From: Altererythrobacter sp.
GTDB taxonomy: Bacteria; Pseudomonadota; Alphaproteobacteria; Sphingomonadales; Sphingomonadaceae
Direction: 5' to 3'
NCBI GenBank assembly: GCA_013002295.1
Contig: JABDKI010000041.1
Span: 1-42,291 of the forward strand
Length of the DNA: 42,291 nt
The position numbers and the translations under genes are program-made. The notes beneath the pieces were generated by a model. It was not told where the DNA came from and made no database searches. It saw nothing but the letters and a program-made list of their open reading frames with translations. This document shows, piece by piece, positions 1 to 16,329 of the stretch (position 1 is its first letter; every line of letters starts with the position of its first letter).

Positions 1-569
1 CCTTCGATCCGCGTGACACCTTGTGCTTCCGCGATTTTCCTCAGGTGCCGTCCATAGGCGATGGCATCGAAATGGTATGCATGTGGCAGCAGCTCGCTGA
101 GTCGTCCCGGGTTGCGGGGATCGAACCCGAAACGGGCAAGGTCGGTCGCTGCGCGGCCCAAGAACAATTCTTCCCATCTGGGATAGTCGGCTGCGCCCGC
201 CTGCTGTCCAAGGCGCCACCAATGATGCATCCTGACCAGCGCGTCGAGCTCTTGCCCGACACGTCCGAAAGCATGAAGGTACCGATCACCCACATTGCCC
301 CAGTTCTCGAACTGGATTCCCGCTTTGAAGGTGCCCTGCGTGTCGCGCAGAAAGGCAGCTTCATCGACGCCGCAGAAATTGTTGAACTTGCGGATCGGCG
401 GGATGGTCGCTTCGCCTACACCAACGACGCCGATCGCATCGCTTTCTAACAGCTCGATTTCGGCTATGCGACCGAATATGCGCGACAGGAATGTTGCAGC
501 CATCCAACCGGCCGAACCACCGCCGACGATGAGAATCTTGCGCAAAGGATCGCTGCGAGGATCAGTCAT
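1..569 (-). CDS. Flavin-dependent tryptophan halogenase family protein (N-terminal part, cut by left edge)
   Basis: This gene is missing from the ORF track because its stop lies outside the window. Reading the minus strand from ATG at 569 gives an open frame of 189 codons to the edge. Residues 12-25 hold the FAD-binding Rossmann glycine motif (ILIVGGGSAGWMAA). GVGEATIPP follows at about 50-58, and TFKAGIQFENW at about 80-90 carries the lysine (about K82) that aligns with the catalytic Lys79 of PrnA. These are hallmarks of the Trp_halogenase (PF04820) family. The WxWxIP motif would lie beyond the edge, so halogenating activity cannot be confirmed. The ATG overlaps the stop of the TPR-sulfotransferase by 8 nt (ATGACTGA), so the two are probably translationally coupled. 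Members next to TonB receptors in this order are common, and most have unknown substrates. The family call is firm; the substrate is unknown. Confidence 0.9.
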   Translation of the reverse strand, partial: MTDPRSDPLRKILIVGGGSAGWMAATFLSRIFGRIAEIELLESDAIGVVGVGEATIPPIRKFNNFCGVDEAAFLRDTQGTFKAGIQFENWGNVGDRYLHAFGRVGQELDALVRMHHWWRLGQQAGAADYPRWEELFLGRAATDLARFGFDPRNPGRLSELLPHAYHFDAIAYGRHLRKIAEAQGVTRIE

Positions 570-2331
570 GCGCAAATTCTCCCAAAGCATCGCGCAATGG
601 GCCTAGCCAAGGTCCATAGGCTTTCCAAGCGCTGATGCCCTTGCGATTGAGCGGCTTGCGCACTTGCTCACTGCTCGCGGTTGCAACGGGTTCTTTGGAA
701 AGGTGGAACTCAAGCACTTGCGGCTCGAACGGGATATCGATCGCTGAGAACATGGAACTGGTCTCACTCTCGGCTGAATCCACCAAAGCTTCGTAGCCCT
801 GAAGATGGATTCGCCCCGGGAAGCGTCGTGACAATGTGTCCGTCTGGCGAACATAATCCCCGTAAAACAGGCCGATATCGGATAGATCGCTGGCGGCTGG
901 ATGCCCTCTGGCGAACAGCGTCTTGAAGTTTGACCAGCAACAATCCATCGCGTCGCGCCGAATGTCTATGATGCGCGCCTGTGGCAACATGCGCAGGATC
1001 AAGGGCAAATGGCGCCAGTTCATGTGAAGCTTGTCGACAAAGAAGCCGGCATTGGTCTTCATGCGCTCTTTCGCGCGAGCGACATACCATTGCCCCATAT
1101 TGGCAAGAGCGGCATCGCTCAGACCTGCGATAGCCTGTTCTAGCTTATCCTCGCCTGCATCTTGGCGCAGCCGATCGACCATATGCGGCACGATAGAGAG
1201 TTCGCCTAACGCCTCGATGCCGGAGTGCTGGCCCAACATCCTCTCGACCAAGGTTGAGCCGGCTCGCGGCATACCCAGAACGAAGATCGGTACTGGCTCA
1301 GCGGGGTCGGGCCTGTGCGCAGATGGTTCTGGATCGTCCCCTAGTGCGCCAAGGTATCGATCAACTTGCGATGTGATGTCATGCGCGTCATAGGGCTGCG
1401 CCAGGCGGCGAAGCCTGTTGCCCGCTGCGAACTGAGCAAAGGCCTGTTCAGCCGCACCTTGTGCGTCGTGCGCAATGCCCAGCGCGAAATGAAGATTGCC
1501 AGCGTGCTCGGGCTGGTCACCGCGTTGTGCAAGCGCCTGCTCAATCTGCGTGACATCACCCGCTGTAAGGACAGATGCATCCAGATCAGCAAGACTCCAC
1601 CACGCGCGGCCATGACAGGGATCCTCTGCAATCGCGCTACGATAGGCTTCCGTGGCTTCTTCACGCTTGCCATCAAAACGCAGGCTGTCGCCAAGGTTGG
1701 TCAGCGCGTCGGGTGATCGCGGATCGAGCCGAACCAGTTCCCGATTGGCCTTGGTCGCGGCAGCATAGTCACCGCGCTCAGTGTGAATGCGCGAAAGCAG
1801 ATTGACCAGCTCGGCATCATCGCGGCGTTTTTCAGCCACTGGCTGGATGACACGCAAGGCATCGGTCAACCGATCGGTCAGCATCAATGCATTAGCATAG
1901 AGAATGCGCGCACGCAGGAAACCCGGGGCGCGGCTGAGCACTTTTTCCAGCATAGGCAGCACTTTGTAGGCTACGCCCAGCGCAATTCCGGCCTCCGCCG
2001 ACAGTGTCAATGCGGCCAGATCATCGGGTTCATGCTGCAAATGTTCAGCCAAGATCCGGCTGGCTTCGCCAAATTCCTGCGCAGTCATCTGCTGTGCGGC
2101 CTTGGTCAGCGCCGGCACCGCAGAGCTGTGATGGATAGCGGCGATTTCTGCCTGCTGTGCTTCAGCGGCCTCACCTAGCTCTCGGTGTGCAGCTGCCGCA
2201 GTGCGCAAGAGCCTGGGATCGCTAGGCGACTGTTTCAAGCGCCCTTGCGCCTCCGCCAGTACAGAACGGATGTCGGCTTCACTCTTACCGGAAGTTGCAT
2301 TCCCGTTAGTCACGATGTCATGCTCATTCAT
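562..2331 (-). CDS. TPR-repeat sulfotransferase
   Basis: The product is 589 aa from the chosen ATG at 2331. The ORF track start at 2379 adds 16 residues that run back into the upstream gene. The ATG at 2331 gives an 8-nt overlap with that gene's stop (ATGAATGA), the same arrangement as at its own 3' end. Residues about 20-290 are helical repeats of TPR type, for example ALTNLGDSLRFDGKREEA. A sulfotransferase domain runs from about 347 to 580: PIFVLGMPRAGSTLVERML is the 5'-phosphosulfate-binding loop for PAPS, and the RRDAMDCCWSNF segment near 457 fits the 3'-phosphate site. No signal peptide is visible, so action is probably cytoplasmic. TPR domains usually bind polypeptide, which makes a protein or peptide acceptor plausible, but no substrate can be read from the sequence. 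Confidence 0.9.
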   Translation of the reverse strand: MNEHDIVTNGNATSGKSEADIRSVLAEAQGRLKQSPSDPRLLRTAAAAHRELGEAAEAQQAEIAAIHHSSAVPALTKAAQQMTAQEFGEASRILAEHLQHEPDDLAALTLSAEAGIALGVAYKVLPMLEKVLSRAPGFLRARILYANALMLTDRLTDALRVIQPVAEKRRDDAELVNLLSRIHTERGDYAAATKANRELVRLDPRSPDALTNLGDSLRFDGKREEATEAYRSAIAEDPCHGRAWWSLADLDASVLTAGDVTQIEQALAQRGDQPEHAGNLHFALGIAHDAQGAAEQAFAQFAAGNRLRRLAQPYDAHDITSQVDRYLGALGDDPEPSAHRPDPAEPVPIFVLGMPRAGSTLVERMLGQHSGIEALGELSIVPHMVDRLRQDAGEDKLEQAIAGLSDAALANMGQWYVARAKERMKTNAGFFVDKLHMNWRHLPLILRMLPQARIIDIRRDAMDCCWSNFKTLFARGHPAASDLSDIGLFYGDYVRQTDTLSRRFPGRIHLQGYEALVDSAESETSSMFSAIDIPFEPQVLEFHLSKEPVATASSEQVRKPLNRKGISAWKAYGPWLGPLRDALGEFAHD

Positions 2332-3109
2332 AGCCCAGGATCGTGCGGAGGCCCGGGCTTGCGAAGTCGACCATCGCACGCTGTTGCTGGCTCAGCTCAT
2401 CGGGGAGAGAGGTGATCTTGCCCGACAAGTTCTGCTTGGCCGTACCGCTGTTCGCAGGGTCTGAACCGATCTTCACCCGCGCACGCCAGTCGCTTGGCAT
2501 GGCGATACCGCAAGCCTCAAACAGATCGCGGAAATATGCCTCTGACGCGGGCGTTTCCAAATCACGGAGCGCAGCTACCAGCTCTTCATATCGTACCAGG
2601 TGAACACCGGTGCCGAGCCACGCCACTGCGTTGTGGGCATAGGTTTCCTTTAAGGCAGGCAGGGCGCGTGGAATACCGAAAATGACCATGCTGATCAGGT
2701 CATCAGCGCTGATCGGAGCTGACTTCAACATTTCAAGCTCGCCGGTAAACTCGTCGGAGAGCATGAAGCGCGCCTTGGAAAGCACCCAGCTATAGGGATC
2801 GCGCACCAGCAGCAGTTTGCGCGCGACGCTAGTCGAAATGGCGGAAACGTCCGAATGGAACAGGTGCCCCCAGCTCAGTTTGGCTGGCGGGCCATCAAAT
2901 GCGGCCAGATGATCACGCAGGTTTCCGTACTGAATGAAATCGCGGTCATAGTGCTGCTCGACCGGGACAAACATTCGGATGATATTGCGCAGCAAATGGC
3001 TGCCTGACTTTGGCACTGAGTTCAAAAACAGATGCTGTTCCAGCGGCGCTTGCTCGAATTCAGCATTGCGCGCATTCAAATCGTCAGGTTTCAGGTGAAT
3101 CTCAGGCAT
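2324..3109 (-). CDS. Sulfotransferase family protein
   Basis: The product is a single-domain protein of 261 aa. VPKSGSHLLRNII near residues 32-45 matches the PAPS 5'-phosphosulfate loop, and KLLLVRDPYSWVLSKARF near 95-112 matches the 3'-phosphate-binding RxxxxxxS region. Together they define a PAPS-dependent sulfotransferase fold. No signal peptide or membrane segment is seen. The gene starts 98 nt after the TonB receptor stop, behind a terminator hairpin, and overlaps the TPR-sulfotransferase start by 8 nt. Two different sulfotransferases in one operon suggest either two acceptor sites or a catalytic/accessory pair. The acceptor is unknown; the family call is secure. Confidence 0.88.
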   Translation of the reverse strand: MPEIHLKPDDLNARNAEFEQAPLEQHLFLNSVPKSGSHLLRNIIRMFVPVEQHYDRDFIQYGNLRDHLAAFDGPPAKLSWGHLFHSDVSAISTSVARKLLLVRDPYSWVLSKARFMLSDEFTGELEMLKSAPISADDLISMVIFGIPRALPALKETYAHNAVAWLGTGVHLVRYEELVAALRDLETPASEAYFRDLFEACGIAMPSDWRARVKIGSDPANSGTAKQNLSGKITSLPDELSQQQRAMVDFASPGLRTILGYE

Positions 3110-3150
3110 GATCTATTTCAATGTAACGGGTCAATGAGGCCAAGCCCAAT

Positions 3151-3183
3151 AAAAAAGGGGTGACGGACAATGCCCGCCACCCC
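3151..3183 (-). terminator. Rho-independent terminator inside the receptor operon
   Basis: On the minus strand GGGGTGGCGG pairs with CCGTCACCCC (10 bp with one G-U wobble) across a 7-nt loop and is followed by six T residues. It lies 25-57 nt after the TonB receptor stop and 42 nt before the downstream sulfotransferase start. It should end most receptor transcripts, leaving read-through for the enzymes. Confidence 0.85.
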
Positions 3184-3207
3184 TCTATTGTCCGCTAAGC
3201 GTTCGAC

Positions 3208-6200
3208 TTAGAACTTCGCGCGGGCTTGCAGGAAGGCGCGACGACCAAGGAAGTCATACTGCGATGCCTGCGGCACATTTGCGAAAGCAGTCACGAGACC
3301 GGAAACCTGCGGGGGTTCTGTATCGAACAGGTTCGCAACACCCAGCGTGATCTCAAAGCGATCATCGTCGAAGCTCTGCGTGATCGAGGCATTGTGATAC
3401 CAGACTGCATTCGTGCGCGGCACGACACAGTATGGTTCGCCATAGACCACCTCGAACGAAGGTGTTGGGTTACACAGACCGCCGAAGTCTTCGATGTAGT
3501 CTGCTTCACTCGACGAGGCGCCGATAACCGTGACACCATAGAGAAGTGTCGTGTTACCCTTTTCCCATGTCGTGATGAGATTGCCAGTGAACTTGGGATC
3601 GCCAACGTCACCGTTCAGTTTCTCATCTTCTGTCAGGTTTGCTGCATCAGAACCGAACGTAATGATCTGGTCCTTGGTTTGCAGTGTCGCTTGGCCAAGC
3701 AATGACAGTTCACCCAAATCACCAAGATCGTGGCGAACACGCAGGGTAAAGTCGATGCCCTTGTTGCTCTGTTCGTCAATGTTGATGAACTGACGGTTCA
3801 CGAAACGAATATTGTTGATGTCGCCATCCTGACCGCGCTCGAAGAACGAACAGAAAGGATTGTTCGGGAAATCAACCGAATCGTAGCAACCTGACACGAT
3901 CTGGAATGGATTGAGTTGTGAAATCTCACCTTCAACCGTAATGTCGAAGTAGTCGATCGTCAGCGCGATGTCCGTATCCGGCAAGAAGTCGAATGACGGT
4001 GTCAAGATCATGCTAGCCGTAAAAGCAGTCGACGTTTCCGGTTCAAGTACACCCAGACCGCCTGAAGTGAATACAGATACCTGAATACCTGCACCCGTGT
4101 GGTCAGCAGGAATACCAGTGGCTGGACCGTTCAGGAAGCTCTGGTCGGCCTGGCAATTGGTTGCGATACGCTGTGTGATCGTGCCGTCATCCAACTGTTC
4201 CTGCCAGCGGACACAAGGGTCCACATTACGCTGACGCGCACCGCTTGCCTGACTGCCAAGGAATTGCTCGAACAAGGCTGGTGCGCGGTAAGACGTACCA
4301 TATGTCGAACGCAGACGCAGCCAATCGGTCACGGTCCAGTTGCCAGTTAGCTTGTAGGTCCAGTTGCCGTTGCTGGCGTCGCTACGGCCATCGGGAGCGG
4401 TTGCGCTCACATTGGTGACACGAGCAGCGGCCGAGATTTCAAGGTTCTCGACCAACAGCTTGTCGCGGATCAGCGGAAGGTTGATTTCGGCAAAGGCTTC
4501 CTTCGTCGTTGTCCGGCCGCGAGTGGGCGTCGACGAGAAGTTGTTCGCAAAGCCGTTATCGACAAAGTCATCCGGATTGTTCGGATCACCACCTGGAACC
4601 AACGCATTGGTAATATCGCCTGGCGTATCATCGATCTCGTCGCGCCGAATTACCGCACCCAGAGCGAAGCCAAACGGACCAGCGGGCAGTTCGAACAGCT
4701 CGCCAGAAACAGACGCTTCTGCAAACATTTGCTCGTAAATTGTTACGCCAGTCTCCTCACCGACCAGATACTCGACTTCCTCGGGAGTGAGGTCACCGGC
4801 CATGACCCGCGGATCAACCCAGTTGATCTGCAGGCACGGCTTGTTCTCGATAGCTGTAAACAGTCCGGCGCAACCGTATCCATAAGCACGATCAGTCTGC
4901 TGTGTGATACTGTCCTGCAAGATTTGCTGCAGAGTGTATTTGCCTTCAGACCGGCTGTATTGGCCATGCACATCATAAGACAACTTGTCTGTCAGGTCAC
5001 CACGAACGCCGAGGACACCGCGATAGTAGTCGACATCGATCCAGTTGTCGTATTGATCGAGGATACCAGTCGGGCTGATGAAAGCTCCCAGACCGCCAAA
5101 AGAAGTCCAACCCGGGAACGGATCGTCCGGATCGCCCGGAGCATAAAGGTCTGTGTAGCCGAAGTTATAGAACTGCGAGTAGGTATCAACATAAGTCTCG
5201 CGACGGTTGAAAAGCCCTTCCGCGTAAACTTCCACGCCTTCGGTCAGTTCGAATGCCGCATCGGCATACAGCGTGAAACGCTCGGTTTCCGGAATGACAG
5301 TGCTGGCCTGCTCAAACGGGTGATAGGCGTTACGCAGAATGTATGCGTTAGGGTCTTCATAGCTGACCGCGAACCAGCCCGGAGGCGTGATTACGTTGCC
5401 AGGATTGACCGCAGGGCCGGGAGGTGGAATGAAATTACCAAGGTTATCGTTACCATAGCTGAACTGCAGCAGCGAGACGATGGTTGGGTTGAAGAAGTTG
5501 GGATCCTGATCCTGAAGGTTGTCTGAGAAATATGTCCATACATGGCCCCAGAGCGTTCCATTCGGGCAGCCCAGTTCGCCTGTTCGCGGATCGATCAGAT
5601 CAAGCCGACGCTGGCCATCTTCGCTGAAGACATAATCTTCAGGACAGCCAAGGAAATCGCGGTCCTGTCGCTGCAGTTCGCGCTGCTTGTAATAGTCGCC
5701 TGCGAGAAGGATGTGACCGCGGTCAAACTCCTTGCCCCAGGCAAGGCTTACGCTGGTTTCTTCACCGCCTTCTTCGAAAGTTTGCGAACGGAAGAAATCG
5801 AACTCAAGACCATCCGTCTGCTTTTTCGTCCGAATGTTGACCACACCTGCCACAGCGTCTGAACCGTAGATCGAGGATGCGCCGTCTTTGAGCACATCAA
5901 CTTGCTCAATGATAATGCCCGGCAGAACGTTGAGGTCAAAGGCCGAAACAGCACCACGCGTACCAGCGGGGCCAGCGCGGCGGTCATTCAGCAAGACGAG
6001 CGTACGTTCTGCACCCAGTCCACGCAAAGACACCGTCTGCGCACCGGGACCACCATTCGAGATGGTGTTCGCAGAGATCGCTGACGTAATCTGGGTCGAT
6101 CCATTGGCAATCGGAGACTGCTGGATGATTTCCGCAGCAGAATTCAAACCTTGTTTGCGCTGCAAGTCTGGATCGATGATTGTTAGCGGCGAAGCGCTGG

Positions 6201-6411
6201 TCGTTTCATTCCGGCGAATACGGGAGCCGGTAACGATGATCGCCCCCTCGTCCGCTGCCTGTGTGGAATTGTCATCCAAAACCACTGCTTGATCTTCATC
6301 GGCGTCCTGCGCAACCGCTGGCGTTGCCAGCGTGATGGCCAGGGCCGAAACCCCGGCGCTGGTCAGCCAGCGCACGGCCTTTGGATCCGAGAATCCGGCA
6401 CAACTTTTCAT
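3208..6411 (-). CDS. TonB-dependent outer-membrane receptor
   Basis: The product is 1067 aa from ATG at 6411, chosen over the track start at 6465 because it gives a clean signal peptide (MKSCAG... to TPAVAQ, about 35 residues) and follows an AGGGGAA ribosome site. A plug domain follows: IIVTGSRIRR, TVSLRGLGAERTLVLLNDRR, and EQVDVLKDGASSIYGSDAVAGVVNI. The rest is a long beta-barrel ending in the aromatic C-terminus FLQARAKF. It should sit in the outer membrane and import a ligand using TonB-ExbBD energy. There is no N-terminal STN signalling extension. Cysteine pairs and many tyrosines in acidic stretches (for example IDVDYYRG) lie in the barrel. It is the first gene of the cluster with two sulfotransferases and a halogenase. 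The substrate is unknown. Confidence 0.95.
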   Translation of the reverse strand: MKSCAGFSDPKAVRWLTSAGVSALAITLATPAVAQDADEDQAVVLDDNSTQAADEGAIIVTGSRIRRNETTSASPLTIIDPDLQRKQGLNSAAEIIQQSPIANGSTQITSAISANTISNGGPGAQTVSLRGLGAERTLVLLNDRRAGPAGTRGAVSAFDLNVLPGIIIEQVDVLKDGASSIYGSDAVAGVVNIRTKKQTDGLEFDFFRSQTFEEGGEETSVSLAWGKEFDRGHILLAGDYYKQRELQRQDRDFLGCPEDYVFSEDGQRRLDLIDPRTGELGCPNGTLWGHVWTYFSDNLQDQDPNFFNPTIVSLLQFSYGNDNLGNFIPPPGPAVNPGNVITPPGWFAVSYEDPNAYILRNAYHPFEQASTVIPETERFTLYADAAFELTEGVEVYAEGLFNRRETYVDTYSQFYNFGYTDLYAPGDPDDPFPGWTSFGGLGAFISPTGILDQYDNWIDVDYYRGVLGVRGDLTDKLSYDVHGQYSRSEGKYTLQQILQDSITQQTDRAYGYGCAGLFTAIENKPCLQINWVDPRVMAGDLTPEEVEYLVGEETGVTIYEQMFAEASVSGELFELPAGPFGFALGAVIRRDEIDDTPGDITNALVPGGDPNNPDDFVDNGFANNFSSTPTRGRTTTKEAFAEINLPLIRDKLLVENLEISAAARVTNVSATAPDGRSDASNGNWTYKLTGNWTVTDWLRLRSTYGTSYRAPALFEQFLGSQASGARQRNVDPCVRWQEQLDDGTITQRIATNCQADQSFLNGPATGIPADHTGAGIQVSVFTSGGLGVLEPETSTAFTASMILTPSFDFLPDTDIALTIDYFDITVEGEISQLNPFQIVSGCYDSVDFPNNPFCSFFERGQDGDINNIRFVNRQFINIDEQSNKGIDFTLRVRHDLGDLGELSLLGQATLQTKDQIITFGSDAANLTEDEKLNGDVGDPKFTGNLITTWEKGNTTLLYGVTVIGASSSEADYIEDFGGLCNPTPSFEVVYGEPYCVVPRTNAVWYHNASITQSFDDDRFEITLGVANLFDTEPPQVSGLVTAFANVPQASQYDFLGRRAFLQARAKF

Positions 6412-7866: not shown

Positions 7867-8095
7867 ACGCAAGTGCACGCCATACCTTGGGCGTCGACAT
7901 ATATCGCGCCAGTTCGCCTGGTTCAGACTCATTTCCTCGCGAAAGAAATGGAGACGGTCACAGCTCAACAAGACCGACAACAAAACCAAGCACTAGCTTG
8001 TGGCGATGCTTTGTGTTGGTCTAACACTGTGCGCGGAGACTAATCGTCGGCAGCTATTCCTGATGGCGATTTCACTGGACGGGGGATTTGGCGGC

Positions 8096-9907
8096 GTGAG
8101 CAATGATCTGGCAAGTGATTGCTTCCGGCCACGCCTCGCGTTGCGGTTCGGGATTACGGGGCATCGGCCACCGCGGCTAAAGTCAGAACATCACCAGCAT
8201 GTCCGCGATCACTGCGCGCAGTTGTTCGAACTGGCTGCCAAATCGCTCTCTGACATTGTCGAAGAGCATCCCGGCATTTTTTCATCTGAGCCGGCCGAAA
8301 CTGTACTAGTTTCATCGCTCGCAGAAGGAGCAGACGTTCTTGCTGCGGAAGCTGCGCTGGGAAGCGGTGTCCGTTTGGCTGCATGTTTGCCATTTCCCGC
8401 CGAAGTATATGCAAAAGACTTCGGTGAAGTTGAATGGCGCAGCACGTCCTCTTTGCTTGATCAGGCGCAATCGGCCATGGCGCTGGCTGACTTCAATGGC
8501 GGTGACGAGGCGGCATATGAACACGCCGGGCGCCTCGTTCTCTCGCAATCGGATATATTGATCGCGGTTTGGGATGGAGAAGCCGCGCGCGGTAGAGGAG
8601 GGACCACGCAAGTTATTGCAGAAGCGGTCGCTCTGCATCAGCCGGTCATCCATATCGATGCCTCCGGAAAATCGCCTCCTGAATTGCTGTGGAGCGGTTT
8701 GCACGATGTTGTGCCAGACCGCCCGTCATTGGACGGCGTAGAGCGAACCGACGCGAAAGAAGCGTTGCCGCGACTGATCCACGCGCTTTGCGCACCGCCT
8801 TCAGGAGAGGAGCAGGCTGCGCTTAGAAAATTCGTTCAACCGCATCCCGACAGAAGTGAACGCCATTTTGCGTGGCCGGCGCTTTTGGCTGCAACAGGCG
8901 CTAAGAAGTTGCGCAAAACCTCTTTTCACCCTCCGAAACCGAGCGACAGCGTGGAATCTTTGCGCAATCATGTGGGGGCTTTCGCGGGGCAAGAGCGTTT
9001 TGGGGCACAATTGACTGAAGAGGTTGCGCGCCGGTTTGGACGGGCAGATGCCGAAGCGGGCTATTTCGCGCTGCGTTTCCGATCAAGTTTTGTGGCCAAT
9101 TTTGCCTTGGCTGGTCTCGCGGTCATGCTAGCCTTGTCAGGGCTGTTGTTCCCCGACGGGAAGAAATGGCTGATAACGGCTGAGTTGATCGTCATTCTGG
9201 TGATTATCATCAACACGCACGGAGCCAACCGGTCAAATCTCCACCAGCAATGGCTAAATCTGCGCCACCTGGCAGAGCGACTGAGGCTGCTGGCCATGTC
9301 TGCGACGCTTGGGCAACTTTCTCTTAGAGCGGTGGAAGATGGCACAACGCAACCTGGCTGGGTTAGTTGGTACGCCAGAGCGACCGCGCGAGAATTGGGG
9401 CTGGCGGGTCAAACATACGACCAAGCCTACCTCACTAAGGTACGCGCATCGATGCTGGAGCTCATTGATGATCAGGCGAGTTATCACGAAGCGAATGCGC
9501 ATTCGATGCATCACGCCAATCATGCGCTGCACCGGATGGGCGACGCGTTTTTCGTCGGCACGATTCTGGCCTGCCTTGCCTATCTTGGCACAGCAATTTT
9601 TGTTGGCAAGCCGGGCAACCTCGGCCCCTTCGGCGTGACAGAATTGGTCACTTTTGCAACCGCACTTTTTCCGGCTCTCGCTGCAGCGCTCTACGGCATC
9701 AGGATGCAGGGCGATTTCGCTGCGACAAGCGAACGATCAACGGTCATCGCCCGACAACTTGCTCAGCTGCGCAGCGCGATCGAGCGCGATCCACTAAGTT
9801 ACGAACGGCTGATTGATCGTTCGCGCAGGCTTGGCGAGATCATGCTGGCTGAAATCCACCAGTGGCGCTTGCACTATGAGACGCGTCCACTGAGCCTTCC
9901 GGGTTGA
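8096..9907 (+). CDS. SLOG-domain protein with SLATT-like multi-span membrane domain
   Basis: The frame is open from 8000 (635 aa). GTG 8096 is preferred because GGGGGA lies 9 nt upstream and the SLOG core then starts within about 15 residues; ATG 8063 is an alternative. The N-terminal third has RFGITGHRPPRL, VSSLAEGADVLAAEAAL and SDILIAVWDGEAARGRGGT, matching the Rossmann-like SLOG superfamily that binds nucleotides. The C-terminal half has four hydrophobic spans (ORF residues about 363-383, 390-408, 515-537, 544-566). Between the pairs, HQQWLNLRHLAERLRLLA resembles the conserved W-R-AE-LR helix of SLATT/DUF4231 proteins. In that literature such pairs are proposed nucleotide-sensing, pore-forming defence effectors. 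The gene stands alone, with no nucleotide cyclase beside it. The domain assignments are by eye. Confidence 0.75.
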   Translation: MSNDLASDCFRPRLALRFGITGHRPPRLKSEHHQHVRDHCAQLFELAAKSLSDIVEEHPGIFSSEPAETVLVSSLAEGADVLAAEAALGSGVRLAACLPFPAEVYAKDFGEVEWRSTSSLLDQAQSAMALADFNGGDEAAYEHAGRLVLSQSDILIAVWDGEAARGRGGTTQVIAEAVALHQPVIHIDASGKSPPELLWSGLHDVVPDRPSLDGVERTDAKEALPRLIHALCAPPSGEEQAALRKFVQPHPDRSERHFAWPALLAATGAKKLRKTSFHPPKPSDSVESLRNHVGAFAGQERFGAQLTEEVARRFGRADAEAGYFALRFRSSFVANFALAGLAVMLALSGLLFPDGKKWLITAELIVILVIIINTHGANRSNLHQQWLNLRHLAERLRLLAMSATLGQLSLRAVEDGTTQPGWVSWYARATARELGLAGQTYDQAYLTKVRASMLELIDDQASYHEANAHSMHHANHALHRMGDAFFVGTILACLAYLGTAIFVGKPGNLGPFGVTELVTFATALFPALAAALYGIRMQGDFAATSERSTVIARQLAQLRSAIERDPLSYERLIDRSRRLGEIMLAEIHQWRLHYETRPLSLPG

Positions 9908-13115: not shown

Positions 13116-13931
13116 CTACTTTTGGCACCTGGCGCAGAACCATGTGCTGCGTCCGCCTTGAGCAAAGCGGCGGATGATGCCGCCATCTTCGCGGCGGCAA
13201 GCTTCTCCCTCGCGTCCATAGACATCAAAGCGTGTGGCAAAATAGCCGAGTTCGCCATCCGGTGCAGCGTAATCGCGCAAGGTAGAGCCGCCATCATGGA
13301 TCGATTGAGTGAGCACTTCCTTGATATGCGGAACAAGCCGATCAAGCTGGGGCCTGGTCACTTTGCCGCCAGCCTTGCGGGGATGAATCCCCGCGCGCCA
13401 AAGTGCTTCGCACACATATATATTGCCGAGACCCGCCACGATCCGCTGGTCGAGCAGGCAAAGCTTGATGGCTTGCTTGCGGTCTCTGAGCGCGGCCTTG
13501 AGATAGGCAGGGTCGAGATCCTCACTCAGCGGCTCTGGCCCCAAGGCGGCAAACGGCGCCCATTCGCCCAGCGCATCTGTCGCGATCAGATCAACCGAAC
13601 CAAAGCGGCGCGGATCGCACAGGGCAAAATGATGGCCACCTGACTCCATGATCAGGTGGTCGTGTTTGTCTGGCTTGGCCGGATCGATCCGCCACCGGCC
13701 GCTCATGCCCAGATGGAAAACCATCGTCTGATCGCGGTCGGTATGGATCAGGCCATATTTTGCGCGGCGCGACAGGCCGGTTACGGTTGCGCCGGTCATC
13801 ACTTGAACCAGCCCATCCGGAAATGGCCGGCGCAAATTGGGTCGATTGAGCACCAAGCGATCGATCCTTGCGCCATCAAGGAACCGGGTAAGCCCGCGAA
13901 CCGTTGTCTCTACTTCTGGAAGTTCAGGCAT
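13116..13931 (-). CDS. mutM: Formamidopyrimidine-DNA glycosylase (Fpg/MutM)
   Basis: The product is 271 aa and starts MPELPEVETTVRGL, with the catalytic Pro2 and Glu3. LSRRAKYGLI holds the essential beta-hairpin lysine. The helix-two-turn-helix region LDQRIVAGLGNIYVCEALW follows. It excises 8-oxoguanine and formamidopyrimidines and cleaves the strand by beta/delta-elimination. The C-terminal zinc finger normally has CxxC-x16-CxxC. Here the first pair reads CRRE, so the second cysteine is replaced by glutamate while FCARC is intact. This may be a lineage variant with Glu or Asp as ligand rather than a broken gene, because the rest is canonical. The gene is divergent from ubiE and upstream of rpsT. 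Confidence 0.96.
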   Translation of the reverse strand: MPELPEVETTVRGLTRFLDGARIDRLVLNRPNLRRPFPDGLVQVMTGATVTGLSRRAKYGLIHTDRDQTMVFHLGMSGRWRIDPAKPDKHDHLIMESGGHHFALCDPRRFGSVDLIATDALGEWAPFAALGPEPLSEDLDPAYLKAALRDRKQAIKLCLLDQRIVAGLGNIYVCEALWRAGIHPRKAGGKVTRPQLDRLVPHIKEVLTQSIHDGGSTLRDYAAPDGELGYFATRFDVYGREGEACRREDGGIIRRFAQGGRSTWFCARCQK

Positions 13932-14035
13932 GTTTGTTTGTGTAACCTATGTGCCCAAGGAGATCAGGCTTTCAAATCAGAAATGCCCCATAACACCCTT
14001 TGCCATGCTCGCAATTCATCCTAAGGCGCCCCGCT

Positions 14036-14767
14036 ATGACTGATAAGGTTTCTTTCGGCTACGAAGATGTCGATCCACAAGAGAAGACGCAGCGTGTTGG
14101 TGCGGTCTTTTCCAATGTCGCGCGCAAATATGACATAATGAATGATGCCATGTCTGGAGGTATGCACCGGGTCTGGAAGGACAGGTTCGTTCGCCGGGTC
14201 AAACCGCAGCCGGGCGAAGCCACTCTGGACATGGCAGGCGGCACAGGCGACATCGCCTTTCGCATGGCCGCACGCGGGGCCGAGGTTGTGGTTGCTGACA
14301 TCAATCAGGACATGCTCGACGTCGGTATCGAACGCGCGATGGAGCGCGGGATTGATGGCCTGTCATGGTCGTGCCAGAATGCCGAAACGTTGAGTTACCC
14401 GGCAAACCAGTTTGACGCTTACACCATTGTGTTTGGCATTCGGAACGTGACACATATCGACAAGGCCCTGGTTGAGGCGCACCGCGTGCTGCGGCCCGGC
14501 GGTCGCTTCTACTGCATGGAATTCGGCACGACCGACTGGCCAGGCTTCAAAGAGATCTACGATTTATATTCGCACCAGATCATGCCCAAGCTGGGTAAGG
14601 CGATCGCCGATGACGAAGACAGTTACCGTTATCTGGCAGAGTCAATCCGCCGCTTCCCGCTTGCGCATGTATTCGAAGCTATGATCAAGGATGCGGGTTT
14701 CAGAAATACGCGCGTCGAGAAGATTTTGGGCGGGGCCGTGAACATCCATTCGGGCTGGAAAGTGTAG
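14036..14767 (+). CDS. ubiE: Demethylmenaquinone/ubiquinone C-methyltransferase UbiE
   Basis: The product is 243 aa from ATG 14036 (MTDKVSFGYEDV); the track start adds 12 residues. The N-terminal ARKYDIMNDAMSGGMHRVWK is a UbiE family signature. LDMAGGTGDIAFRMA near residue 63 is the S-adenosylmethionine site, and FGIRNVTHIDKALVEAHRVLRPGG is the second family block. It methylates the benzoquinol ring carbon in ubiquinone synthesis. ubiB begins 2 nt after its stop, so the two form an operon for one pathway. It is divergent from mutM with a spacer of about 104 nt. Confidence 0.96.
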   Translation: MTDKVSFGYEDVDPQEKTQRVGAVFSNVARKYDIMNDAMSGGMHRVWKDRFVRRVKPQPGEATLDMAGGTGDIAFRMAARGAEVVVADINQDMLDVGIERAMERGIDGLSWSCQNAETLSYPANQFDAYTIVFGIRNVTHIDKALVEAHRVLRPGGRFYCMEFGTTDWPGFKEIYDLYSHQIMPKLGKAIADDEDSYRYLAESIRRFPLAHVFEAMIKDAGFRNTRVEKILGGAVNIHSGWKV

Positions 14768-14769
14768 GG

Positions 14770-16329
14770 GTGACAAGACCCTCAACCCATATCTGGCGCT
14801 TGCTCAAGTGGGGGCGCAAGCTCGCAAAGCATGGCGCTTTGCGCGGGATCGAAGCCGATCCTAACGCGCCGGTGCAGGTCAAACGATTGGTTCGGCTTGC
14901 GCGTATTGGCACATTCCAGCCTACGACGCCTGACTATGCAACCGCGTTCAAGGCTATTGGACCAGCGGCGATCAAGCTGGGGCAAACGCTGGCCACACGG
15001 CCCGATTTGGTGGGCGAGGAGGCCGCACACAATCTGCTCGGATTACAGGACGATTTGCCGCCGGTCGCTTTCAGCGAGATTGAAGCGTCGATCGCGGCCA
15101 CTTTTGAAAAGCCGCTGAGCGAGCTGTTTCAGGAAATCGACCCCAAGCCAGTCGGCGCCGCATCCATCGCGCAGGTTCACCGCGCGGTGACAAGCGACGG
15201 CCGCAAGGTTGCCTTGAAGGTGTTGCGCCCCGGCATTCGCGAACAGTTCGCGCGGGATATCGAGACCTATGAATGGGCCGCTGCGCATTTGGAGGCATTG
15301 GGCAGTGACGAAGCGCGCCGGCTGCGTCCGCAGCTTACCATTGCCAATTTCAAACGCTGGACCAATCGCGAGCTTGATCTGCGGCGTGAGGCCGCGTCCG
15401 CTTCCGAGCTTGCGGAGAATATGAAAGGCTTTGCGGGTTACCGTGTCCCGGAAATCGACTGGGATCGCACCAATGGCCGGGTGATGACAGTCGAATGGAT
15501 CGACGGCACAAAGATCAGCAAAGTCGAGGAGCTGAAGGCCAAGGGCCATGACATGGACGAACTGGCGAACCGGCTGGTTCTGGCGTTCCTGACGCAGGCG
15601 ATTAGCGGCGGCTATTTCCATGCAGACATGCATCAGGGCAATCTGTTCGTCGAAGATGACGGCACGATTGCCGCGATTGACTTTGGCATCATGGGACGGA
15701 TCGATCGCCGTGCGCGCCAATGGTTGGCGGAGATATTGTATGGCCTAACCACGGGCAATTACCGGCGTGTGGCGGAAATCCATTTTGAAGCGCAATATGT
15801 GCCGAGCTATCACTCGGTTGACGAATTCGCGACCGCCCTGCGCGCGGTTGGGGAGCCAATGCGCGGCAAGCCAGTGAAGGAATTGAGCGTCGGGCAAATG
15901 CTTGATGGCTTATTTGCGATCACCCGCGACTTTGACATGCAGACACAGCCGCATTTGCTGCTGCTGCAAAAGACCATGGTAATGGTTGAGGGGATCGCGA
16001 CGCAGCTCAATCCCGAAATCAACATGTGGGACACGTCTGCGCCCTATGTGCGCAATTGGGTGCGCGATGAGCTTGGCCCCGAAGCGGCGCTGGCCGACGC
16101 TGTGAAAGAGAATTTCTCGACCTTGCTCAAGCTACCCGATTTGCTGCGCCGGATGGATGAGAAATTCCCGGCCAAAGGCGGTGCGCCAGAAGCGCCCCCG
16201 CTGCCGGAAATCGAGCTGATCGTCGGGCCCACTGCGCCCAAGCGACGCAGCTGGCTGGGCTATGTCGCTGCAGCCGCGGCCGGAGCAGGCGTGCTTTACG
16301 GCGCGACGATGCTCGGCTGGATTGCTTAG
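14770..16329 (+). CDS. ubiB: Ubiquinone biosynthesis protein UbiB (atypical kinase-like ATPase)
   Basis: The product is 519 aa with a GTG start 2 nt after ubiE. It has the KxGQ motif (IKLGQTLATRPD near residue 68), the alanine-rich loop GAASIAQVHRA (about 130), HADMHQGNLF (about 283) and AIDFGIMGRID (about 302) of the UbiB/ADCK atypical kinases. A C-terminal hydrophobic span (about 493-515) anchors it in the inner membrane. The family is needed for coenzyme Q synthesis, probably as an ATPase that helps present lipid intermediates to the Ubi complex. The stop codon overlaps the convergent DUF4345 gene's stop (TTAG). Confidence 0.96.
   Translation: MTRPSTHIWRLLKWGRKLAKHGALRGIEADPNAPVQVKRLVRLARIGTFQPTTPDYATAFKAIGPAAIKLGQTLATRPDLVGEEAAHNLLGLQDDLPPVAFSEIEASIAATFEKPLSELFQEIDPKPVGAASIAQVHRAVTSDGRKVALKVLRPGIREQFARDIETYEWAAAHLEALGSDEARRLRPQLTIANFKRWTNRELDLRREAASASELAENMKGFAGYRVPEIDWDRTNGRVMTVEWIDGTKISKVEELKAKGHDMDELANRLVLAFLTQAISGGYFHADMHQGNLFVEDDGTIAAIDFGIMGRIDRRARQWLAEILYGLTTGNYRRVAEIHFEAQYVPSYHSVDEFATALRAVGEPMRGKPVKELSVGQMLDGLFAITRDFDMQTQPHLLLLQKTMVMVEGIATQLNPEINMWDTSAPYVRNWVRDELGPEAALADAVKENFSTLLKLPDLLRRMDEKFPAKGGAPEAPPLPEIELIVGPTAPKRRSWLGYVAAAAAGAGVLYGATMLGWIA

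Follow-up and report, generated by a model that had tools for sequence, protein, structure and literature searches.

Why should the gene of an outer-membrane receptor be followed by genes for two sulfotransferases and a halogenase? The question is raised by one contig of Altererythrobacter sp. (JABDKI010000041.1, all 42,291 nucleotides of which are here called the window), where the minus strand carries a TonB-dependent receptor (TBDR), a small sulfotransferase (ST1), a sulfotransferase with tetratricopeptide repeats (TPR-ST) and then the start of a flavin halogenase. Our comparison of related loci shows that ST1 is inherited together with this TBDR subfamily; a TPR-ST usually accompanies the two, one clade also has a flavin halogenase, and beyond these no gene is constant. 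The TBDR-sulfotransferase unit with its optional halogenase is conserved and apparently undescribed; we found no report of a TBDR-sulfotransferase pairing in the open-access literature searched, an absence that is no proof of novelty. That the receptor and the sulfotransferases travel together suggests a chemical modification of either the receptor or its ligand. The features concerned, all on the minus strand, are the following.

3208..6411 (minus): TBDR, 1067 aa, with plug and 22-strand-type barrel (Pfam PF07715 and PF00593; AlphaFold model, pLDDT 72.7)
5290..5682 (minus): TBDR residues 244-374, a very long inter-strand loop (L2), placed from the secondary structure of the model and loop-length parity
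5530..5550 (minus): TBDR residues 288-294, WGHVWTY, motif WG[HQ]x[WY]xY, confined to receptors partnered with ST1; candidate site of modification or ligand loop
3151..3184 (minus): terminator-like GC-rich hairpin, followed by T6, past the stop codon of the TBDR and between receptor and enzymes
2324..3109 (minus): ST1, a divergent sulfotransferase of the type that uses 3'-phosphoadenosine 5'-phosphosulfate (PAPS), 261 aa, constant partner of the TBDR subfamily (K34/H82/R103, predicted fold of cytosolic sulfotransferases (SULTs), weak Sulfotransfer_1 match in the family)
562..2331 (minus; ATG at 2331): TPR-ST, ~589 aa, N-terminal TPRs and C-terminal Sulfotransfer_3 (Pfam, similarity to protein-tyrosine sulfotransferases)
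1..569 (minus; ATG at 569): flavin-dependent halogenase of the Trp_halogenase family, ~189 of ~509 aa, ending at the contig edge (PF04820, orthologues)

An earlier note on this DNA had described four genes in one direction with 8-nt overlaps among the last three. Coordinates and Pfam matches bear this out, with the overlap at both junctions, ST1/TPR-ST and TPR-ST/halogenase, and the order is no accident, since it recurs in distant genomes. The TBDR and ST1 do not overlap; the 98 nt between them hold a strong terminator-like hairpin. The draft genome is fragmented (252 contigs, 2.1 Mb) and the window is one entire contig of it, so that the remainder of the halogenase, including its WxWxIP region, lies beyond the contig end.

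Co-inheritance of the receptor with its neighbours

How far does the association reach? Of 301 genomes sampled from the order, 26 have an ST1 by profile search; in a class-wide sample the profile found only the window's own family and two weak partial matches, and an additional case came from a Brevundimonas contig. We read 32 ST1 loci, the window included. In 31 of them, distributed over several families, the next gene upstream is a TBDR of one subfamily, 78-133 nt away. The ST1 gene is strictly linked to one outer-membrane protein gene, as in a maturase pair, with a single orphan. TPR-ST comes next after ST1 in most loci and was not found at six of the 32 (L013, L020, L058, L062, L067, L068). 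The halogenase was unseen in the first ten loci examined, and a wider sample yielded the four-gene unit in six more genomes: besides the window, two congeners (L049, L050) and four genomes of a second genus (L055, L056, L060, L061) have it. The congeners share 90% identity with the window in the TBDR; in the other genus TBDR, ST1 and halogenase are 60-68% and TPR-ST ~47-50% identical to the window's. The four-gene order, whose conservation the earlier note had proposed to check, is thereby kept in two genera and beyond close strains. L067, which comes from a different family, has an ST1-TBDR pair with four other halogenases around it; these are divergent, with 30-37% identity to that of the window (L067:4107-9096 and 13708-15324), and genes for an amidase and an S9 peptidase are nearby.

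ST1 and TBDR distances are strongly correlated (Mantel r 0.88, 0/2000 permutations), which counts in favour of the view, developed below, that the enzymes serve the receptor. Receptor identity across ST1-TBDR pairs ranges from 39 to 90%, and congeners are split among clades, as are the window and L051 from the same genus. The pair appears to have been transferred or lost as a unit, because the trees agree though congeners fall in different clades. In the TBDR tree the halogenase-bearing receptors make up one clade and the ST1-less receptors another; the basal group of ST1-bearing receptors (L013, L067, L068) suggests an ancestral ST1 that was then lost once, with weak support at the deep nodes. 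Judged by comparison of the loci, ST1 is the constant partner and the halogenase an optional late addition, two points that the earlier note had missed.

Several loci depart from the simple arrangement. The orphan ST1 (L057:9487-10281, plus strand), in a genome rated complete (G323), has intact catalytic residues and adjoins an apparent S-adenosylhomocysteine hydrolase gene; at the same position, relatives of G323 (L108, L109) carry an ST1-less receptor of the same clade. L066:3099-14988 contains two complete TBDR-ST1-TPR-ST units in tandem and a third TPR-ST on the opposite strand. Units often adjoin an apparent clpB gene, some with further TBDRs (L014, L020, L021, L062, L077), which resembles an insertion hot spot for receptor genes.

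Linkage to receptors also holds for the wider enzyme families. A TBDR lies within 3.5 kb at 27 of 34 TPR-ST loci and 17 of 20 halogenase loci, as against 2 of 20 arbitrary regions of the same genomes; the corresponding Fisher values (6e-7 for TPR-ST, 1.7e-6 for the halogenase) overstate certainty, because related loci are non-independent and represent several independent associations, not 44. TBDR calls were made with profiles from diverse TBDRs, narrower TBDR queries having recovered only 2 of the 34 TPR-ST loci, and Pfam confirmed 10 of 10 sampled calls. The receptors linked to TPR-STs belong to three main TBDR families in three main gene arrangements. In one group (cluster A, L154-L175) TPR-ST stands directly upstream of the TBDR. 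To judge by sequence rather than by database search, the loci inspected also have an apparent APC-type amino-acid permease and, close by, genes that resemble FAD oxidoreductases and Rieske oxygenases; this recurrent gene set hints at amino-acid-like or aromatic ligands. LacI, alpha-amylase, GH2 or Cupin_8 genes occur at some halogenase loci. A sugar ligand would offer no electron-rich arene to a halogenase, which would favour the receptor as substrate.

Might the genes simply be co-regulated neighbours without a common substrate, whose enzymes have glycans or envelope lipids as substrates and nothing but conditions of expression in common with the receptor? A GC-rich hairpin is found by inspection just 3' of the receptor stop codon in 31 of 31 homologous gaps, about a dozen of which also have a run of at least five T. 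A terminator-like element between receptor and enzymes would fit such loose company, as would the optional halogenase, the missing TPR-ST at several loci and the orphan ST1 in G323. Against it stand the pairing of ST1 with the TBDR at 39-90% receptor identity in several families, the concordant trees and the repeated linkage of TPR-STs and halogenases to TBDRs, and we consider it rather unlikely.

Catalytic residues and possible acceptors of the enzymes

Are the enzymes equipped to act, and on what? The ST1 of the window has no match in Pfam; 7 of 11 aligned members of its family match Sulfotransfer_1 weakly (best 7e-5). The AlphaFold model of ST1 (pLDDT 77, pTM 0.76) finds human and plant SULTs as its top solved matches in Foldseek (E 3e-4, probability 1.0, modest TM). 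K34 in a PKSG loop, H82 in SWGHL and R103 in RDP are invariant in 32 of 32 members; their roles as the SULT 5'-phosphosulfate-loop Lys, the catalytic His and the 3'-phosphate Arg are assigned from motif, not from superposition. With these three residues and the modelled SULT fold, ST1 has the predicted make-up of a PAPS-dependent sulfotransferase.

TPR-ST would suit a polypeptide acceptor. The best non-TPR matches of its C-terminal half in the Protein Data Bank (PDB) are the protein-tyrosine sulfotransferases 1 and 2 (TPST1/TPST2; E ~3e-6), the nearest solved structures to this domain. Counted from M1 at 2331, residues R356, E377, K434 and S553 have aligned counterparts in TPST1 and do not vary among all 26 TPR-STs compared from such loci; a SxxQVxKPxN motif is shared as well. 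TPR-ST differs in being bacterial and presumably cytoplasmic and in having a TPR domain, and the overall similarity is weak. It carries the Arg, Glu, Lys and Ser expected of a protein-tyrosine sulfotransferase, so that Tyr sulfation is its predicted activity; the suggestion in the earlier note that a TPR domain on a sulfotransferase suits a polypeptide acceptor gains from this catalytic domain, with which the TPRs are in keeping.

Could the polypeptide be a ribosomal peptide encoded elsewhere, which is modified and then sensed or imported by the receptor? Apart from the TPST-like domain, this possibility has a bacterial precedent in the tyrosine sulfation of the peptide RaxX by RaxST (PMC6637879), where a sulfotransferase likewise adjoins a surface-exposed or secreted partner. 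Here, the partner is a TBDR, and there is neither a small peptide gene nor a conserved set of secretion genes. All open reading frames (ORFs) of at least 35 aa conserved between the two four-gene genera overlap the four genes, and the flanks differ; in the same comparison no adjacent peptide exporter or protease of the RaxST-RaxX type was found besides the four. The search of the flanks for small peptide genes that the earlier note had called for thus gave no conserved one between the two genera. We rejected a precursor peptide encoded in cis, since no extra ORF is conserved and the space between TBDR and ST1 is too small. The lack of a conserved ORF beyond the four genes argues against such a precursor as well as against a biosynthetic cluster; with no conserved small ORF, exporter or protease near the unit, we regard a distant peptide, too, as quite unlikely.

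The halogenase fragment matches PF04820 (E 8e-54) over positions 1-177 of 458 of the profile. Its catalytic Lys (TFKxGI), noted earlier, is present in the fragment and in the orthologues. Complete orthologues at the equivalent place (504-509 aa) retain the Lys, WxWxIP and a Glu/Ser motif; those of L049 and L055 read HSVGWQWRIPL and LEPLESTSIH, in a region before which the window copy ends. The earlier note had made its idea depend on these downstream residues, and they are there in the orthologues. The halogenases of L049 and L050 are complete and 84-85% identical to the fragment. An indoleamine 2,3-dioxygenase family gene (L049:4393-5724, minus strand) lies near the halogenase in these two congeners and is not conserved in the other genus.

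Which class of halogenase is this? The closest solved relatives of the orthologous enzyme are 9luq, Xcc4156 (6y1w) and BrvH (6frl); tryptophan halogenases rank behind these. The three are full-length collinear best matches with the catalytic Lys, WxWxIP and Glu/Ser in common, and collinearity extends across the region of the substrate lid of Trp halogenases, which places the orthologue nearest the BrvH/Xcc4156 open-site class on sequence comparison. What sets the present halogenase apart from them is its company, two sulfotransferases in a unit of four genes. Neither BrvH nor Xcc4156 halogenates free Trp; the active site of both is open, and a peptide has been proposed as native substrate (PMC5945002, PMC7336383).

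Some of these properties fit a small molecule equally. The main rival to a modified receptor is that the enzymes modify its ligand or a derived small aromatic molecule, which would either be imported by the receptor or be made, sulfated and halogenated by the cell, exported and taken up again. The ST1 fold is closest to SULTs that act on small molecules, the relative BrvH halogenates free indole in vitro (PMC5945002), and a prolyl-oligopeptidase-family gene stands near the TBDR at two loci (L016, L067). The loci, however, have no constant gene for scaffold synthesis, catabolism or inner-membrane transport, and the receptors beside TPR-STs and halogenases span several families with differing neighbours. 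We hold a modified ligand to be possible, if some way short of probable.

The receptor and its loop motif

If the receptor were the substrate, where might it be modified? By its plug domain and modelled barrel the protein is recognizable as a TBDR, and a search for its ligand among solved structures returned, in the PDB, only generic TBDRs. About 260 columns are conserved in at least 90% of 31 ST1-partnered receptors, 16 of which are lost in the ST1-less clade; four of these 16 (W288, G289, W292 and Y294) lie inside seven residues. All 29 distinct receptors partnered with ST1 have the resulting motif, WG[HQ]x[WY]xY, and none of the 31 other TBDR-like ORFs of the loci retrieved has it, which favours a modified receptor. 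The alignment from which the receptor was modelled shows no variation at W288, G289 and Y294. In the model, the motif falls in a stretch of 131 residues (244-374) that joins two barrel strands. Here, connections between strands are long and short by turns, which makes this segment the extracellular loop L2. PfeA, CirA and BtuB share the plug and barrel fold and differ from the present receptor in its 131-residue L2 with the WGxxWxY motif.

Several observations weigh against a modified receptor. The contrast between motif and ST1 is essentially one evolutionary split and is, as read from the alignment, a pointer rather than a test. Other ST1-specific positions are spread over the plug (T151) and further loops; they may equally be the signature of a ligand pocket, which they resemble, and in this respect they support the modified ligand. 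The ST1-less receptor in L077 retains the Tyr, both Trp being lost. G323 has an intact ST1 and no receptor of the ST1 clade, and a DNA-pattern search of that genome for the receptor motif gave a penicillin-acylase-like gene as its sole match. Linked receptors show no enrichment of Tyr in acidic stretches, a feature to which the earlier note had drawn attention, nor is there a Trp column specific to halogenase-bearing receptors; four Tyr columns are specific to these receptors and are fully confounded with phylogeny. Finally, by sequence the receptor, its ligand and other molecules are all candidate substrates. The tailoring system of receptor or ligand proposed by the earlier note is thus upheld in its conserved receptor-enzyme unit and intact catalytic residues, and has lost its peptide precursor and its acidic Tyr stretches.

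Two further observations concern individual sequences. The receptor just mentioned is a second TBDR of L077 (5452-8511, plus strand), divergent from a TBDR-ST1-TPR-ST unit, without ST1 and without the WGxxWxY motif; it groups with the ST1-less clade and has an in-frame stop codon near the N terminus. Elsewhere in the window (8057-9907, plus strand), a 616-aa protein with no Pfam match at E 1e-5 and with apparent membrane segments is encoded near a CoA-transferase gene.

A possible maturation of the receptor before export

How might the enzymes act on their receptor? Cytoplasmic heptosyltransferases are encoded beside the autotransporters that they modify before Sec export (Aah-AIDA-I, TibC-TibA). 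The present unit would be alike in that a cytoplasmic enzyme is encoded next to its one outer-membrane protein target and modifies it ahead of Sec; it differs in that glycosylation is proven there, whereas sulfation and halogenation are inferred here. Our preferred reading, to which we would give somewhat less than an even chance, is a mobile receptor-plus-maturase unit whose enzymes work in the cytoplasm on aromatic residues of a receptor yet to be exported. The enzymes are likely to act in the cytoplasm because all three have no obvious export signal and depend on cytoplasmic cofactors (PAPS and reduced flavin, FADH2).

We envision a scenario whereby the unfolded receptor precursor is modified on aromatic side chains in the cytoplasm, ahead of Sec export, with ST1 and TPR-ST sulfating Tyr and the halogenase halogenating Trp or Tyr. 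The best single candidate site would be WG[HQ]x[WY]xY (W288, W292, Y294) in L2, on the extracellular side. Once the receptor was exported and folded, its charged or halogenated side chains would come to lie along the entrance for the ligand and tune the binding. The terminator-like hairpin might keep the enzymes far scarcer than the receptor: partial termination would produce the ratio expected for catalysts acting on an abundant protein. The hairpin does not separate the competing hypotheses.

Might such chemistry be general? It is conceivable, though we think it unlikely, that the extracellular loops of TBDRs in Sphingomonadales commonly contain sulfotyrosine and halogenated Trp or Tyr, made in the cytoplasm by dedicated sulfotransferases and flavin halogenases from adjacent genes. 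The native substrates of BrvH/Xcc4156-type halogenases are unknown and TPR-sulfotransferases are widespread here without an assigned role, and both families adjoin TBDR genes; a general TBDR modification, if true, would supply the long-sought native substrate of the BrvH/Xcc4156 halogenases. One receptor subfamily with a near-obligate small sulfotransferase and a matching loop motif names a concrete loop to examine. If the modification is real, the ligand specificity of these receptors would be set by post-translational chemistry besides sequence, with consequences for receptor-based ligand prediction and for the binding of phages or bacteriocins.

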